This document shows positions 1,607 through 8,395 of a stretch of DNA of 64,000 nucleotides, one piece after another; positions within the stretch are counted from its first letter, which is position 1, and each line of letters opens with the position of its first letter. The translations under genes were made by a program, and so were the position numbers. The DNA comes from Gemmatimonadales bacterium (GTDB lineage: Bacteria; Gemmatimonadota; Gemmatimonadetes; Gemmatimonadales; GWC2-71-9). The stretch lies in contig DASUJH010000007.1 of the NCBI GenBank assembly GCA_036279355.1, positions 1 through 64,000 on the forward strand. The letters run 5' to 3'. The notes beneath the pieces were generated by a model. The model was not told where the DNA came from. It worked only from the letters and a program-made list of their open reading frames with translations, and searched no databases.

Positions 1607-2718
1607 AGTTCGTCGACGAATTCCGGAATCCCGAGCTCGGCCGGGCCCTGTCGGCCCAAATCGCGGCGGAGGTCGAACCGCGGCGCCATTACAAGGTCAT
1701 GGAGGTCTGCGGCGGCCACACCCACACCATCTACAAGTACGGTGTGGATGACCTGCTGCCCGCCAACGTCGAGTTGGTGCACGGGCCCGGCTTCCCGGTC
1801 TGCGTGATTCCGATGGGGCGGGTGGACGACGCGATCTCCATCGCGCGCGGGCCCGGCGTGATCTTCACCTGCTTCGGCGACATGCTGCGGGTGCCGGGTT
1901 CCAGCGGCACCCTGCTCGACGCCAAGGCCGCCGGGGCCGATGTGCGCATGGTCTACTCGCCGCTCGATGCGCTCCGGATCGCGCGGGACAATCCCGATCG
2001 GGACGTGGTCTTCCTCGCCATCGGCTTCGAGACCACGGCGCCTTCCACGGCACTCACGCTGATGCGCGCCCGCGCCGAGCGGATCCCCAACTTTTTCTGT
2101 CTGTGCAATCACGTCACCATCGTACCGCCGCTCAGGGCGCTGCTCGAGTCGCCCGATCTCCGGCTCGACGGATTCATCGGGCCCGGGCACGTCTCGACGG
2201 TAGTGGGCGGCCGGCCGTTCGAGTTCATCCCGACTGATTATGGGAAGCCGGTGGTGATCTCGGGATTCGAGCCGCTCGATGTGCTCCAGTCGGTCCACAT
2301 GGTGCTCCGGCAGCTCGCCGAGGGGCGCTGTGAGGTCGAGAACCAGTACACCCGGGTCGTGCCCTACGCCGGTAACCCCCGCGCTCTGGAGGTGCTGGCC
2401 GCGGTCTTCGAGCTCCGCCCTCATTTCGAGTGGCGCGGGCTCGGCTTCATCTCGCAGAGCGGGCTCAAGCTCTCCGCGGCATACGCGGACTTCGACGCCG
2501 AGCGGCGCTATCCGGTGCCCGGCATCAGGGTGGCGGATCCCAAGGCCTGCCAATGCGGCGAGGTGCTGAAGGGCGTCATCAAGCCGTGGGAGTGCAAAGT
2601 GTTCGGCACGGCCTGCACGCCCGAGCGGCCCATCGGCACCTGTATGGTATCGAGCGAGGGGGCCTGCGCCGCCTATTACAACTACGGGCGGTTCGCCCGG
2701 GAGCGGCAGGTCGTGTAA
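1603..2718 (+). CDS. hypD: hydrogenase maturation scaffold HypD
   Basis: HypD (371 aa, normal length) is the iron-sulfur scaffold on which Fe(CN)2CO is assembled with HypC and HypE. Visible motifs are CGGHTHTIYKYG with Cys36, the region around GPGFPVCV (residues 61-68), and the C-terminal [4Fe-4S] cysteines (CQCGEVLKGVIKPWEC ... CTPERPIGTC). The usual second motif is GPGCPVC with a redox-active cysteine pair; here the first of these is Phe64 and only Cys67 remains. The ATG at 1603 overlaps the previous stop (ATGA). The stop shares one base with the hypE start. Confidence 0.95.
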   Translation: MKFVDEFRNPELGRALSAQIAAEVEPRRHYKVMEVCGGHTHTIYKYGVDDLLPANVELVHGPGFPVCVIPMGRVDDAISIARGPGVIFTCFGDMLRVPGSSGTLLDAKAAGADVRMVYSPLDALRIARDNPDRDVVFLAIGFETTAPSTALTLMRARAERIPNFFCLCNHVTIVPPLRALLESPDLRLDGFIGPGHVSTVVGGRPFEFIPTDYGKPVVISGFEPLDVLQSVHMVLRQLAEGRCEVENQYTRVVPYAGNPRALEVLAAVFELRPHFEWRGLGFISQSGLKLSAAYADFDAERRYPVPGIRVADPKACQCGEVLKGVIKPWECKVFGTACTPERPIGTCMVSSEGACAAYYNYGRFARERQVV

Positions 2719-3869
2719 TGATGCGGCATCCCGCCGCGGGTGCCGCCGACGTCGAGCGGCACGCGCAGGAGCCGAAGGGCATGCGCGCCGAGGTCGATGC
2801 GCGCGAGCAGCGGGTGCTGGGCCGCATCGAGCAGGCGCGCTCGCGGCCCGCGCACTTCCGCGATGCGCAGATCACGATGGCGCACGGCGCCGGCGGCAAG
2901 GCGACCCGCACGCTGATCGAAGGTTTGCTTGTGCCGGCGTTCGGCTCCGCTTCGCTCGGCGAGTTGGCCGATGCCGGTACGGTGCGGCTCGAGGGCCTGG
3001 GCTTGGCACTCACGACTGACAGCTTCGTGGTGAAGCCGCTCCGGTTTCCCGGCGGATCGATCGGCGAGCTCGCCGTGAACGGCACGGTGAACGACCTCGC
3101 CGTGGCTGGAGCCCGCCCGGTGGCGCTTACGCTCGCGCTGGTGCTCGAGGAGGGGCTTCCGGCCGAGGCGTTGCGGGCGGAAGTCGAGGCGATTGGGGCG
3201 GCGGCGCGGACAGCGGGCGTCGAAATCGTGGCCGGCGACACCAAGGTGGTGGAGCGGGGCCACGCGGATGGCATGTACGTCTGCACTACCGGGCTCGGCG
3301 TCCTTGATCCGCGCGCTTCGTTGTCGCCTCGCGCGCTCAAGCCCGGCGACCGGATCGTGGTGTCCGGCCCGATCGGCGCGCACGGCACGGCGATCATGCT
3401 GGCGCGCGGCGAGTTCGAGCTGGACGCGGCCATCGAGTCGGATACCTGCTCGCTCTGGCCAGCGATGGACGCACTGCTCGCGGCGGCGGGCCCGGGGCTC
3501 CGCTGCGTTCGCGATGCGACGCGCGGCGGCGTGGCGTCCGCGCTCAACGAGCTGGCCCTCGCATCCGGCGTCGCCATGCTCGTCCGCGAGCGCGCAGTGC
3601 CCGTGGACCCCGCCGTCGCGGGCGCGTGCGAGATCCTCGGCATCGATCCCATGTACGTGGCGAACGAGGGGCGACTCGTGGCGTGCGTTGCACCGGAGCT
3701 CGCGGACGCGGCGGTGGCCGCGCTCTGTCGGGTTCAAGGCTCGGAGCGCGCGGCGGAAATCGGAGAGGTCCGGTCCGAACCGCCGGGCATGGTGCTGGTC
3801 GAGACCGCATTTGGCGGCAAGCGCGTGATGGATCTCCTGGTCGGAGACCCGCTGCCACGGATCTGCTAG
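2718..3869 (+). CDS. hypE: hydrogenase maturation protein HypE
   Basis: HypE (383 aa) dehydrates a thiocarbamoyl group on its C-terminal cysteine to thiocyanate, the source of the cyanide ligands. It ends in the hallmark PRIC (Cys383). The AIR-synthase-type ATP-binding region shows AHGAGGKATR (residues 55-64), a DSF motif and GDTKVVERG. Canonical HypE would begin near residue 48, so about 45 charged residues are extra at the N-terminus. Start choice: the ATG at 2718 (or 2721) sits on the hypD stop as TAATG. An open frame continues further upstream inside hypD but is not needed. Confidence 0.94.
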   Translation: MMRHPAAGAADVERHAQEPKGMRAEVDAREQRVLGRIEQARSRPAHFRDAQITMAHGAGGKATRTLIEGLLVPAFGSASLGELADAGTVRLEGLGLALTTDSFVVKPLRFPGGSIGELAVNGTVNDLAVAGARPVALTLALVLEEGLPAEALRAEVEAIGAAARTAGVEIVAGDTKVVERGHADGMYVCTTGLGVLDPRASLSPRALKPGDRIVVSGPIGAHGTAIMLARGEFELDAAIESDTCSLWPAMDALLAAAGPGLRCVRDATRGGVASALNELALASGVAMLVRERAVPVDPAVAGACEILGIDPMYVANEGRLVACVAPELADAAVAALCRVQGSERAAEIGEVRSEPPGMVLVETAFGGKRVMDLLVGDPLPRIC

Positions 3870-3875
3870 GAAGAC

Positions 3876-3983
3876 GTGCTGGTCGGGCTCTCCGCCGCGT
3901 TCGCGCGGGCGGTGGACTGGGAGGTCGAGCTGGTGCTGCGGACGGTGGAGGAGCTACGGCCTGATGCCGCCAGTCCAGGGTAA
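3876..3983 (+). CDS. possible 35-codon ORF between hypE and the SIS gene
   Basis: A GTG-started frame of 35 codons begins VLVGLSAAFARAVDWEVELV and ends in TAA at 3981-3983, overlapping the next gene by 20 bases. Third positions are almost all G or C, as in neighbouring genes, and a 90-base gap would otherwise be unusual in this compact cluster. I recognise no family. It could be a small accessory peptide, a degraded gene end, or chance in GC-rich DNA. Confidence 0.25.
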   Translation: MLVGLSAAFARAVDWEVELVLRTVEELRPDAASPG

Positions 3984-5232
3984 GAGCGGTACGACCACGA
4001 CGCCCGCCGCGACACTCGGGGCCGCCGCGTGGATCGACCACCTCCTGCAACGCCGCACCGACGCCAACCATCGCTTCTTTGCCGCACACGCCGATCGGAT
4101 CGCGCGGCTCTGCCACCGCATGGCCGAGCGATTTGCGCGGGGCGGGCGGCTGGTGGCGTTTGGGCACGCCGCGGCGCCGCGGTCCGACGTGCGCCATGTG
4201 GCGGTGGAGTTCGTGCACCCGGTGATCGTCGGGAAACGCGCGTTGCCGGCGTTGGGGCTCGCGAGCGAAGGTGGGCCGCTCGCCGCCCAAGTCGAGCTTC
4301 TGGCCGAGCCCGAGGACATCGCGATCGCGTTCGGGACGGACGAGCGCGGAGGCGATAGCGATACGGCCGCAGCGCTCGACGCGGCGCACCGTCGCGGCTG
4401 CCTCACGATTGCGTTTTCGCCAGCGGGCGCCGCGTGGGAATTCGTGCCGCCGAGCGACGACCCGTTCGTGCGCCAGGAGCTGGTCGAGACCCTCTATCAC
4501 GTGCTCTGGGAGCTGGTGCACGTGTTCTTCGAGCATCGCGGGCTGCTGCATGGGCGGGAGGCGCGCACCGTTCACGACATTGGCGCGCCGGGATTTCTCT
4601 ATCCCTTTCTGGCGGAGCGGGAGAACGACCTCGAGTCGGTCGTGGGCGACGTGCGTGCGTCGGTGCTGCTCAAGGCCGACGAGGTGGCCGCGCTCAGGGC
4701 GCGCACGCTGTCCGAAGGGCGCGATGCGCTCGCCGCCGCCGCGACCGCGCTGCGTGCGGCGTTCGACGGTGGTGGGCGCCTCTTCGCGCTCGGCAACGGC
4801 GGGTCCGCCACCGATGCGATGGACGTCGTGGCCGACTTCCGCGAGCCGCCGCGCGGATGGCCCGCACGCCCGGCGGTGGATCTCACCGAGGACGCGGCCA
4901 TCCTGACCGCGATCATGAACGATGTGGGGCCCGAGCTCATCTTTTCCCGCCAGATCATCGCGCACGGGCGCGCGGGCGACGCAGTCCTGGCGCTCTCGAC
5001 GAGCGGCGGATCGCGCAACGTGATCGAGGCCCTGGCCGAAGCGCGCCGGCGGGCCATGGTCACGGTCGCGCTCGTGGGATATGGCGGCGGCCGCATCGCC
5101 GCGGAAGGATTGGCCGACCACGTGATCGTGACGCCCTCCGAGCACATTCCGCGCATCCAGGAGGCGCAGGCGAGCGCGTACCACGTGCTGCGCGAGTTGG
5201 TGGAGCTGGCGGGCGCGGACGCGCCCTCATGA
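3964..5232 (+). CDS. tandem SIS-domain (GmhA-like) protein of the hyp cluster
   Basis: This 422-aa protein holds two consecutive sugar-isomerase (SIS) domains. The C-terminal one (about 240-405) retains GmhA/DiaA-like motifs GNGGSATDA (near 277) and LALSTSGGSRN (near 342). The N-terminal one (about 40-175) is degenerate, with GHAAAPRSD in place of the GNGGSA loop. GmhA isomerises sedoheptulose 7-phosphate, but no heptose-pathway neighbours are present, and the position between hypE and hypF (ATGA overlap with hypF) suggests a role in hydrogenase maturation. As I recall, SIS genes occur in some actinobacterial-type hydrogenase loci; the biochemical role is not known to me. Confidence 0.85.
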   Translation: MPPVQGKSGTTTTPAATLGAAAWIDHLLQRRTDANHRFFAAHADRIARLCHRMAERFARGGRLVAFGHAAAPRSDVRHVAVEFVHPVIVGKRALPALGLASEGGPLAAQVELLAEPEDIAIAFGTDERGGDSDTAAALDAAHRRGCLTIAFSPAGAAWEFVPPSDDPFVRQELVETLYHVLWELVHVFFEHRGLLHGREARTVHDIGAPGFLYPFLAERENDLESVVGDVRASVLLKADEVAALRARTLSEGRDALAAAATALRAAFDGGGRLFALGNGGSATDAMDVVADFREPPRGWPARPAVDLTEDAAILTAIMNDVGPELIFSRQIIAHGRAGDAVLALSTSGGSRNVIEALAEARRRAMVTVALVGYGGGRIAAEGLADHVIVTPSEHIPRIQEAQASAYHVLRELVELAGADAPS

Positions 5233-7628
5233 GCCGCGCGCCGGCGATGCGGCCGCGCGGAGGCGCCGTCGATCCGACCCGGCGACCGGGCCGGCGCCGG
5301 GTGCGGGCCCGGGTCGAAGGCGTGGTGCAAGGCGTTGGCTTTCGCCCGCACGTCTACCGTCTGGCCGTGACGCTGGGCCTCGGCGGTCACGTCCGGAACG
5401 ACGTGCGCGGCGTGGTGGTGGAAGTCGAAGGCGACGCGGGTGCGGTCGAACGCTTCCTCGATCGTCTGGTTGCGGAGGCGCCGCCGCTCGCGTCGATCGA
5501 GCGGGTGCTGCGCGACGACATCGCGCCGGCCGGCGAGCGCAGTTTCTCGATTCTGGAGAGCGCCGCGGCGGGCGAACCGTCGGCGCTCGTCTCGCCCGAC
5601 ACGGCGACCTGCGCGGCCTGCCTCGGGGAGTTGTTCGACCCGGGGGACCGCCGCTATCGCTATCCGTTCATCAACTGCACCGACTGCGGGCCCCGGTTCA
5701 CCATCGTGCGCGGCGTGCCGTATGACCGGCCGCTTACGACGATGGCGGGGTTTACGATGTGCGCCTGGTGCCGGGCGGAGTACGACGATCCGGGCGCCCG
5801 CCGCTTCCATGCCCAGCCCAATGCGTGCGCGGCATGCGGCCCGAGCGTGCGGCTGGTCGATGCGCTCGGGCATCCTGCATCGCGGAATGCGCCCAATGGC
5901 GATGACGCGATCGCCACCGCGGCACGTGCGCTCGCCGGCGGCGCGATCATCGCAGTGAAGGGGCTCGGCGGTTACCACCTGGCCTGCCGCGCGGACCACG
6001 AGAGCGCGGTGGCACGACTCCGTTCGCGAAAACATCGCGAGGACCGCCCGTTCGCGCTCATGGTGCCCGACGTGGGCAGCGCGCGCGCGCTGGCAGACCT
6101 GGCGCCCGAAGACGAAGCGCTGCTCACCGGGCCCGCGCGGCCGATCGTGCTCTGCCGGAGGCTCGCCGCGGGCCAGGACCGCAGGGTGGGGGCGGTCGCG
6201 CCCTCGGTGGCGCCGGGTTCGCGCGACCTGGGCCTGATGCTTCCCTATACGCCGCTCCACCACTTGCTCGTGGCGGATGCCGGCGTGCCGCTCGTGATGA
6301 CGAGCGGAAATGTCTCCGACGAGCCGATCGCCTATCGCGACGACGACGCGCTTGCGCGGCTCGGAACCATCGCCGATCTCTTTCTCACGCATGACCGCCC
6401 GATCCAGACCCGGACCGACGACTCGGTGATCCGGACGGTCGCCGTCGGCGCCAGCGTTCGGCCGCTCGTCGTGCGGCGGTCACGCGGCCACGTGCCGGCG
6501 AGCCTCGCACTTCCGGACGAGGCGCCGCCGCTCCTGGCGTGCGGCGCGGAGCTCAAGAGCACGTTCTGCGTCGGCAAGGGGCGTCGCGCGTGGGTAAGCC
6601 ATCACATCGGAGATCTCAAGAACTACGAGACCCTCGCGGCCTTTCGTGAGGGCGTAGCGCAATTCGAGCGGCTCTTCGCGGCGCGGCCCGAAGTCGTCGC
6701 GCACGACCTTCATCCCGACTATCTCTCCACGGCCTACGCGCTCGAGCGCCAGAGTGTCCGCCACGTCGCCGTGCAGCACCACCACGCCCACCTGGCTGCG
6801 TGCCTCGCCGAGCACGGTATGCGCGGCCCCGCGATCAGCGCCATCTTTGATGGCGCGGGTTACGGACCCGATGGGACGGTGTGGGGCGGCGAGTTGCTCT
6901 TCGGCGATCTCACCGGCTTCGAGCGGTGTGGCCACCTCTGGCCGGTGCGGCTCCCGGGCGGCGACCGCGCGGCGCGAGAGCCGTGGCGGATGGCGTGCGC
7001 GTGGCTCGCGGAGGCGGAAGGCGGCGCGCCCGCGCTTCCCTGCGCGCTGCAGGATCGAGTCGAGCCACGCCGCTGGCGCGCGGTCACGCAAATGGCGCTC
7101 GGCGGGCTGGCCGCTCCGCTCACGACGAGCGCGGGGCGCCTGTTCGACGCCATCGCTGCAATCGCCGGCGTGCGGGCGGAGGTCACCTACGAAGGCCAGG
7201 CGGCCATCGAGCTGGAAGCGCTCGCCGACCCAATCGAAGAGAGCGGGTACACCGTACCCTTGGTCGAAGCGGCGGCCAATGCCACGCTCCAGCTCGACGT
7301 CCGCGAGGCGGTGCTCGCGGCCGCGCGCGACGCCGCGGCGCTCGTTCCGTCGCCGGTGATCTCGGCGCGATTCCACAACGGCCTCGCCGAGGCGACCTCC
7401 GCGGCCCTCTCGTACATGGCACGCGCGCGCGGCTGCGACGTCGTGGTCCTCTCGGGCGGCGTATTCCAGAACCGCCTGCTTCTCGAGCGCACCGCGGCGC
7501 CGCTCAGCGCGGCGGGGTTCACAGTTCTCGTGCCGGAGCGCCTGCCGCCGAACGACGGCGGCATTGCATACGGTCAGGCGGCGGTGGCGGCGGCGCTGCA
7601 CGCGGCAGCAACCGGCGCGAGCCGCTGA
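5229..7628 (+). CDS. hypF: carbamoyltransferase HypF
   Basis: HypF (799 aa) turns carbamoyl phosphate into a carbamoyl-adenylate and transfers the group to the HypE cysteine. Domain order is complete: acylphosphatase-like domain (about 22-105, VQGVGFRPHVYR and HVRND), two zinc fingers (CAAC...CTDC near 127-155; CAWC...CAAC near 178-203), a YrdC-like domain (SRKHREDRPFALM) and a Kae1-like C-terminal domain with HHHAHLAACLAEH near residue 517. The ATG at 5229 overlaps the SIS stop (ATGA); an open frame continues upstream but overlaps the SIS gene heavily. It is slightly longer than typical because of a basic N-terminal leader. Confidence 0.96.
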   Translation: MSRAPAMRPRGGAVDPTRRPGRRRVRARVEGVVQGVGFRPHVYRLAVTLGLGGHVRNDVRGVVVEVEGDAGAVERFLDRLVAEAPPLASIERVLRDDIAPAGERSFSILESAAAGEPSALVSPDTATCAACLGELFDPGDRRYRYPFINCTDCGPRFTIVRGVPYDRPLTTMAGFTMCAWCRAEYDDPGARRFHAQPNACAACGPSVRLVDALGHPASRNAPNGDDAIATAARALAGGAIIAVKGLGGYHLACRADHESAVARLRSRKHREDRPFALMVPDVGSARALADLAPEDEALLTGPARPIVLCRRLAAGQDRRVGAVAPSVAPGSRDLGLMLPYTPLHHLLVADAGVPLVMTSGNVSDEPIAYRDDDALARLGTIADLFLTHDRPIQTRTDDSVIRTVAVGASVRPLVVRRSRGHVPASLALPDEAPPLLACGAELKSTFCVGKGRRAWVSHHIGDLKNYETLAAFREGVAQFERLFAARPEVVAHDLHPDYLSTAYALERQSVRHVAVQHHHAHLAACLAEHGMRGPAISAIFDGAGYGPDGTVWGGELLFGDLTGFERCGHLWPVRLPGGDRAAREPWRMACAWLAEAEGGAPALPCALQDRVEPRRWRAVTQMALGGLAAPLTTSAGRLFDAIAAIAGVRAEVTYEGQAAIELEALADPIEESGYTVPLVEAAANATLQLDVREAVLAAARDAAALVPSPVISARFHNGLAEATSAALSYMARARGCDVVVLSGGVFQNRLLLERTAAPLSAAGFTVLVPERLPPNDGGIAYGQAAVAAALHAAATGASR

Positions 7629-7648: not shown

Positions 7649-8395
7649 ATGCTCGGCTTGGACCAGTGGATCGCGACGTTCGGCGGCGGCGGCATTACGA
7701 TGGGGCTCATCGTGGCGCTGCTGCTCGGGCTGCGGCACGCCACCGACCCCGATCACCTCACCGCCGTTTCGACGCTGGTGCTCACCGGCGACCGGAGCGC
7801 CCGGCGCGCCGGCCTGCTCGGGCTCGCCTGGGGGCTCGGCCATGCGACGACGCTGTTCATGTTCGGCCTGCCGGTCGTCTTGTTCCGGCGATTCCTCCCG
7901 GAACGGCTGCTCCAGGGTGCGGAAGTGGCGATCGGCCTCGTCGTCATCGTCCTTGCGGTGCGCCTGCTGCTCCGCTGGTGGCAAGGCGAGTATCACATCC
8001 ACCCGCACCGGCACGGTACGGTGCGCCACGCCCACCCGCACGCGCACGCGACGGCGCATGCCATCGATGCCCCGGGCGACCATACCCATTCGCATGCGGA
8101 CGCGCTCGGCCGCACCCCGCTCGCGGCGTATGGCATCGGGCTGGTGCACGGAGTGGGGGGGTCCGCGGGCGTCGGCGTGCTGCTCGTGGGAGCGGTCTCG
8201 GGGCGCACCCAAGGCGTGGTCGCGCTGCTCGTCTTTGCCGCGGCGACGGCCGTGTCGATGGCGCTCGTGTCGACGGCGCTCGGCTACGGGCTGAGCCGGG
8301 GTCGGATGGCAGCGAGCTTGGCGCGGCTGGTGCCGGCGTTCGGGGTGGGCGGGCTGCTGTTCGGCGCGTGGTACGCCGTGGTCGCAATGCGATAG
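7649..8395 (+). CDS. NicO/UreH-family nickel (cobalt) permease
   Basis: This 248-aa integral membrane protein has about six hydrophobic segments and the nickel-permease signature HX4DH at His30 to His36 (RHATDPDHLTAV). A His-rich loop (about residues 110-150, many HxH pairs) probably gathers metal. Its place 20 bases after hypF suggests it supplies Ni2+ for hydrogenase maturation. The ATG at 7649 follows a gacgggag purine stretch. Cobalt transport cannot be excluded from sequence. It ends 8 bp from the convergent lipoprotein gene; I see no terminator hairpin between them. Confidence 0.85.
   Translation: MLGLDQWIATFGGGGITMGLIVALLLGLRHATDPDHLTAVSTLVLTGDRSARRAGLLGLAWGLGHATTLFMFGLPVVLFRRFLPERLLQGAEVAIGLVVIVLAVRLLLRWWQGEYHIHPHRHGTVRHAHPHAHATAHAIDAPGDHTHSHADALGRTPLAAYGIGLVHGVGGSAGVGVLLVGAVSGRTQGVVALLVFAAATAVSMALVSTALGYGLSRGRMAASLARLVPAFGVGGLLFGAWYAVVAMR

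Follow-up and report, generated by a model that had tools for sequence, protein, structure and literature searches.

A tandem SIS-domain protein encoded in a hyp operon of Gemmatimonadota is a candidate accessory for the maturation of aerobically made [NiFe]-hydrogenases

SIS proteins and CO supply in hydrogenase operons

Atmospheric H2 is removed in soils by hydrogenases of groups 1h and 2a, whose Fe(CN)2CO cofactor has to be assembled in air. To our knowledge, HypX is the only enzyme that makes the hydrogenase CO ligand under these conditions. In air, HypX converts formyl-THF to CO by way of formyl-CoA (PMC12134894), and high-affinity H2 oxidisers are described as a group in which hypX is "not always present" (PMC4767420).

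Genes annotated as sugar-phosphate isomerases have been noted in hydrogenase operons. A "phosphoheptose isomerase (gmhA)" is marked in acidobacterial 1h operons (PMC5900883), GmhA is among the maturation proteins listed for the hup operon of A. ferrooxidans (PMC7735108), M. smegmatis induces a gmhA-annotated gene along with its hyp genes (PMC5445863), and a SIS cluster is found among [NiFe]-hydrogenase neighbours (PMC12727194). DENSE ties GmhA to HypD/HypE in Clostridium (PMC3231954), a weak support because the link is a functional-association network only. None of the literature covered assigns a function to the SIS protein, reports that it exists in tandem or connects it with HypX; novelty is not thereby proven, because most subscription journals lay outside the search. 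The original prediction of an "undescribed component" therefore holds with respect to function, but not to the gene itself, which had been drawn or listed as phosphoheptose isomerase/gmhA in 1h and hup operons (PMC5900883, PMC7735108, PMC5445863).

In GmhA, the zinc ligands are His-64, Glu-68, Gln-175 and His-183, and the active site is located at the interface of three chains (PMC5705639). The closest described counterparts of the protein analyzed here are single-domain, hyp-associated SIS proteins (hyp-SIS), such as H16_RS31885 from the AH cluster of C. necator plasmid pHG1, with which it shares the operon class, the VEFxHPVxxGxxAL signature and the clade. The hup-operon "GmhA" of A. ferrooxidans is classed with these single-domain proteins from its listing alone.

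Locus, fold and active-site elements of the tandem SIS protein

The window, a stretch of 64,000 nucleotides from a Gemmatimonadales bacterium, contains a hyp operon on the forward strand. Pfam/NCBIfam profiles define the gene order hypC, hypC-like, hypD, hypE, SIS, hypF. The first hypC (positions 1056–1334; PF01455, TIGR00074) is followed by the hypC-like gene, termed HypC2 (1331–1606; PF01455), hypD (1603–2718; TIGR00075), hypE (2718–3869; TIGR02124, with the profile match starting at residue 51), the SIS gene and hypF (5229–7628; TIGR00143). The SIS open reading frame (3964–5232, forward strand) starts with ATG and encodes a tandem hyp-associated SIS protein of 422 amino acids, as judged from the reading frame, a SIS_2 match, an AlphaFold2 model and a 33-sequence alignment. 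It begins 94 bp after the hypE stop (3869), and its own stop shares four bases (ATGA) with the hypF start (5229), confirming the predicted placement between hypE and hypF. A NicO-family nickel permease gene (7649–8395) lies directly 3′ of hypF. Upstream, positions 1–809 hold the 3′ end of a 23S rRNA gene (1–540) and a 5S rRNA gene (693–809); the contig opens within an rrn operon, directly followed by the hyp operon. The structural genes of the host 1h hydrogenase, together with hypA and hypB, reside on a separate contig, C14. The window contig (C7) begins in 23S rRNA and C14 in a repeat array, and comparison of the contig ends revealed no common sequence that would place the two adjacent. The array on C14 (L149, positions 5–330) comprises at least four full and one degenerate CRISPR-like repeat copies with a spacing of 71–72 nt, located at the same contig end as the 1h structural genes.

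A profile search detects only the C-terminal SIS domain (SIS_2, PF13580, residues 239–372). An AlphaFold2 model, built from 33 window and locus sequences, reveals two SIS folds (pLDDT 87.7, pTM 0.87). Over residues 11–420 the model aligns with tandem-SIS enzymes such as the isomerase domain of GlmS (Z 27.5, r.m.s.d. 3.8, 329 residues) and GKRP (Z 26.9, 362 residues). The C-terminal half (residues 228–417) superimposes on GmhA structures with Z about 28 (best 28.3), an r.m.s.d. of 1.5–1.8 and 34–36% sequence identity; DiaA is also structurally close (Z 27). The duplicated sugar-isomerase fold that had been proposed from the sequence is borne out, since the model aligns with both tandem-SIS enzymes and GmhA. 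Like our protein, GlmS/GFAT and GKRP have two SIS domains per chain and align over the whole length, but they share only 8–15% identity with it and differ in partners and context.

The N-terminal half (residues 20–191, positions 4021–4536, forward strand), delineated by alignments and by model elements H20–58 to H167–189, retains the GmhA zinc-ligand positions as His-78, Glu-82, Gln-171 and His-179. Alignments of the halves with single-domain relatives indicate that it lacks the ND.G and STSG phosphate loops. It carries the VEFVHPVIVGKRALP block, in which HxxVEFVHPVIVGKRALP is nearly invariant. In a cross-phylum alignment, the signature block DVRHVAVEFVHPVIVGKRALPAL (residues 75–97, positions 4186–4254, forward strand) has a mean column identity of 93%, with 17 of 23 columns invariant. 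The family signature HxxVEFxHPVxxGxxAL maps to residues 78–94 of the window protein and is also present in proteobacterial single-domain hyp-SIS. The C-terminal half (residues 209–416, positions 4588–5211, forward strand; PF13580) opens with FLYPFL and bears all of the sugar-phosphate loops (GNGGS, ND.G and STSG). They include a GNGGSATD loop, which together with Asp-287 and Asp-291 spans positions 4792–4836 (forward strand) and is invariant in 33 sequences, and an STSGGS phosphate-binding loop identified in the alignments (residues 345–350, positions 4996–5013, forward strand). The two aspartates, each invariant in the 33 sequences, occupy the positions of GmhA His-64 and Glu-68.

Proteobacterial single-domain hyp-SIS proteins keep all four zinc positions and the GNGGS, ND.G and STSG loops, and so contain a complete GmhA-like residue set in one domain, whereas in the window protein the set is spread over both domains. 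The single-domain form starts with LYPFL, as does the C half, and ends with WDLVH, as does the N half. In the simplest reading of these alignments, a single-domain ancestor would have been duplicated, followed by a division of labour between the halves. Estimates of dN (about 0.2) and dS (0.7–1.2) give a dN/dS of about 0.2 in both halves, indicative of purifying selection of about equal strength on each. One half had been described as degenerate, which calls for correction: both halves have losses, and these are complementary, with the zinc positions kept in the N half and the phosphate loops in the C half. We reject decayed filler as an account of the N half, since the block of highest conservation lies there and its rate of evolution is as low as that of the C half.

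The highest-scoring profiles for the protein are GmhA-type isomerase models (127–134 bits), but TIGR00441 scores 127 bits, below its curated cut-off of 209.45, and the DiaA profile PRK10886 scores 93 bits, again below its cut-off of 352. The window protein resembles GmhA in its SIS_2 fold, in the phosphate loops of its C half and in the zinc-ligand positions of its N half; it differs from it in that neither half alone provides the full GmhA site of four zinc ligands and phosphate loops in one domain. In our tree, the N-half clade and the single-domain clade are each supported at 100/99, the C-half clade is less certain (92/90 without M. intracellulare), and the hyp-SIS clades split from GmhA of the host phylum at 100/99. 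No match for HldE domain II (TIGR02199) was found in the host genome, whereas 11 of the 15 genomes compared have one. A second GmhA-like gene was likewise not found in the host assembly, which is 97.5% complete. Two tandem-bearing relatives, G057 and G011, additionally carry a GmhA. A heptose role is very unlikely because the hyp-SIS clade stands apart from GmhA and because HldE and any further GmhA are missing from the host; the reported lack of heptose genes near the locus extends to the whole genome.

Distribution of the SIS gene relative to group 1h hydrogenase and HypX

A scan of genome contigs located at least 576 stretches encoding relatives, and the best 80 were retrieved as loci. Hyp or hydrogenase genes are present in 74 of these 80, and in most cases they belong to enzymes of group 1h or 2a; two of the other six have a neighbouring glutaredoxin-like gene only, and four have none. 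The 80 tandem loci derive from Actinomycetota, Acidobacteriota, Gemmatimonadota, Bacillota, Armatimonadota, Rhodothermota and other phyla. Tandem, split or single SIS genes lie within hyp sets of Thermus, Sulfobacillus, Mycobacterium, the C. necator AH cluster and Afipia, and in Novosphingobium, Mesorhizobium, Methylocystis and Bradyrhizobium plasmids. Single-domain genes take the same operon place in C. necator pHG1, Afipia pHCG3 and Bradyrhizobium, the proteobacterial form being located between hypC and hypD. The gene is not strictly tied to 1h/2a enzymes, because the SIS-bearing hyp set of Afipia pHCG3 adjoins group 1d and 2b hydrogenase genes. The tandem protein is thus not found mainly outside hyp clusters, and its distribution supports a dedicated partnership with hydrogenase maturation genes, those of 1h/2a hydrogenases in particular.

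Tandem SIS genes outside recognised hyp clusters were seen at L056, L087 and L094; the L056 genome has a second copy in a full cluster (L069). A gene for a Uxx-star glutaredoxin-like (seleno)protein often lies between the tandem SIS gene and hypF (L035, L036, L007, L089–L122) and is absent in the window. In G057, a member of the Gemmatimonadales, both halves of the tandem protein are identical to those of a Gemmatimonadaceae assembly.

Of 297 genomes from the host phylum, 76 contain hypE; G011 was added since it has the SIS gene (n = 77). The SIS signature, checked by translation, is present in 12 of these 77 genomes. The same 12 encode a full-length 1h or 1h-like large subunit, and the other 65 have neither (Fisher p = 3e-14). 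The 12 large subunits share either 74–78% or 43–45% identity along their length with the C. necator 1h enzyme; that of G011 is split over two contig pieces. Motif matches in G282, G157, G061, G063 and G057:C93, possible cases of SIS without 1h, were discarded as translation shows that they are not SIS.

HypX could not be detected in the host genome (threshold 1e-40) in a search whose positive controls were C. necator, Acidovorax and the Bradyrhizobium plasmids. Searching the 77 genomes of the host phylum, plus three others, with C. necator hypX likewise gave no match. This absence alone is uninformative on alternation, because hypE-positive genomes lacking 1h are also devoid of hypX. Actinobacteria allow for a comparison. 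Forty actinobacterial genomes encode a 1h or 1h-like large subunit; the SIS signature is found in 31 of them, and one more (G354) has a SIS C half with a HypC-like part. Four of the 40 encode HypX, three of these without SIS, and the fourth (G396) has HypX on a different contig from the 1h cluster, which contains SIS. In a separate actinomycete-class sample, HypX is present in 20 of 297 genomes and the SIS signature in none of the 20. In 14 of them, and also in S. cattleyicolor, HypX is part of the 1h/hyp cluster, and all 15 clusters lack SIS. When the two samples are pooled, uncorrected for relatedness, SIS occurs in 1 of 15 HypX-positive versus 32 of 36 HypX-negative actinobacterial 1h genomes (Fisher p = 3e-8). 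No HypX match was obtained in 139 SIS loci (1.54 Mb), many of them short. C. necator and Bradyrhizobium guangzhouense each have a plasmid with two hyp sets, of which one includes SIS and the other HypX.

SIS and HypX hence alternate in 1h clusters, as had been predicted for the tandem gene. HypX-positive 1h clusters are largely from large-genome, streptomycete-like actinomycetes; the alternation follows lineages and so represents few independent switches, and could reflect inheritance. Some 1h genomes have neither gene (G320, G350 and G492, and the fragmentary G451 and G567). The 1h clusters of G350 and G492 (L201 and L203, respectively, in our set of loci), in which neither was found, may use a third solution or contain a missed variant. 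Some HypX homologues of actinomycetes, Acaryochloris and Mycetohabitans (L222, L223, L225, L236, L161 and L163) lack a recognised hydrogenase gene within ∼10 kb, possibly reflecting CO or formyl chemistry outside hydrogenases. HypX and SIS share the kind of operon and the hydrogenase (1h) they accompany, but have no relation in sequence or fold: HypX combines a formyltransferase with an enoyl-CoA-hydratase-like domain, and the window protein gives SIS-type profile matches only, with neither of these domains.

Possible roles in [NiFe] cofactor assembly

Several loci connect the SIS protein with HypC. In M. intracellulare (L037) and in L181 and L182, the N half is fused to a HypC-family domain, and a separate C-half gene follows; in G137, a HypC-like gene sits between separate N and C genes. 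The window counterpart of the fused domain is the separate HypC2 gene, whose product lacks the N-terminal MC of HypC and has a C12-x5-C-x2-C motif. Because the N half is fused to a HypC-like domain, these arrangements point to an action of SIS at the HypC/HypD scaffold.

The SIS protein is very probably a true hydrogenase maturation accessory. We picture it as dedicated to [NiFe] cofactor assembly of aerobically made uptake hydrogenases (1h, 2a), where, in the presence of O2, it would supply the HypC-HypD scaffold with the CO ligand or a C1 precursor of it. That it takes the part of HypX in the CO step appears to us about as probable as not; we favour this idea because of the exact co-occurrence with 1h in the host phylum and the alternation with HypX. 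The N half may contribute the metal and acid-base side and the C half may bind the phosphate of a sugar-phosphate-like metabolite, and the two could form one composite site per pair, reminiscent of the three-chain sites in GmhA. Such a site might isomerise or break a small phosphorylated metabolite beside HypC2/HypCD. CO could be supplied either by a sugar phosphate that is isomerised or cleaved at the metal, or by delivery of a C1 unit. We know of no SIS protein that makes CO. A second, HypX-independent aerobic Fe-CO route, in which a composite two-SIS metal site would act directly on HypC2/HypCD and produce CO, or a C1 unit that stays bound, from an enediol-type metabolite derived from a sugar phosphate, is a tentative proposal with a limited chance of being right in this form. 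More generally, the protein may make or bind a phosphorylated metabolite that serves one of the two ligands, CO or CN, as first suggested; among all evidence gathered on SIS, nothing points to CN.

A non-catalytic role is possible, if rather unlikely. DiaA is a SIS protein that works as a binding partner, with a GmhA-like SIS fold; it differs from our protein in being a single domain that acts in replication initiation, with no hyp context. By analogy, SIS could be an assembly scaffold or adaptor that holds HypC/HypC2, HypD, HypE and HypF during ligand transfer and perhaps shields Fe-CO from O2. The structural proximity of DiaA, the physical contact suggested by the HypC-domain fusions and the tight operon linkage, and the loss of phosphate loops from the N half all fit such a scaffold. 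A pure scaffold, however, would not need metal positions and phosphate loops that are invariant across phyla and split over the halves, and since HypX, with which it alternates, is an enzyme, the role of SIS would seem to lie in supply.

GKRP is a regulator that binds phosphate or fructose-1-phosphate, and the entire tandem aligns to it. The SIS protein might similarly bind a sugar phosphate and switch maturation with carbon supply, 1h enzymes being made in carbon starvation. Up-regulation of 1h genes in stationary phase (PMC5445863, PMC5900883) is in line with such metabolite gating, which leaves both the HypX alternation and the conservation of the zinc positions unexplained, and we consider it improbable.

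Translational coupling to hypF and the position next to hypE could instead suggest a role in the cyanide branch, such as repair or channelling of a phosphorylated intermediate for HypF/HypE. This is very improbable, given that cyanide derives from carbamoyl phosphate via HypF/HypE (PMC12134894), that the proteobacterial single form lies between hypC and hypD instead, and that the alternation partner HypX is a CO enzyme. Least credible of all is an ordinary sedoheptulose-7-phosphate isomerase for heptose that sits in the operon by chance: despite the top-ranking GmhA profiles and the resemblance of the C half to GmhA structures, an ordinary GmhA identity is contradicted by the profile score, by active-site residues (the only half with phosphate loops has Asp for two of the four zinc ligands), by the tree and by the lack of a detectable heptose pathway in the host, with G057 and G011 having a GmhA besides the tandem protein.

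The maturation accessory that we propose would clearly illustrate how, after duplication, the active-site elements of a homo-oligomeric enzyme can become divided between two domains. Many 1h/2a organisms lack HypX, and a conserved stand-in in the operon offers a concrete gene for the question of the CO source. We consider the SIS protein a good candidate for this missing HypX alternative.
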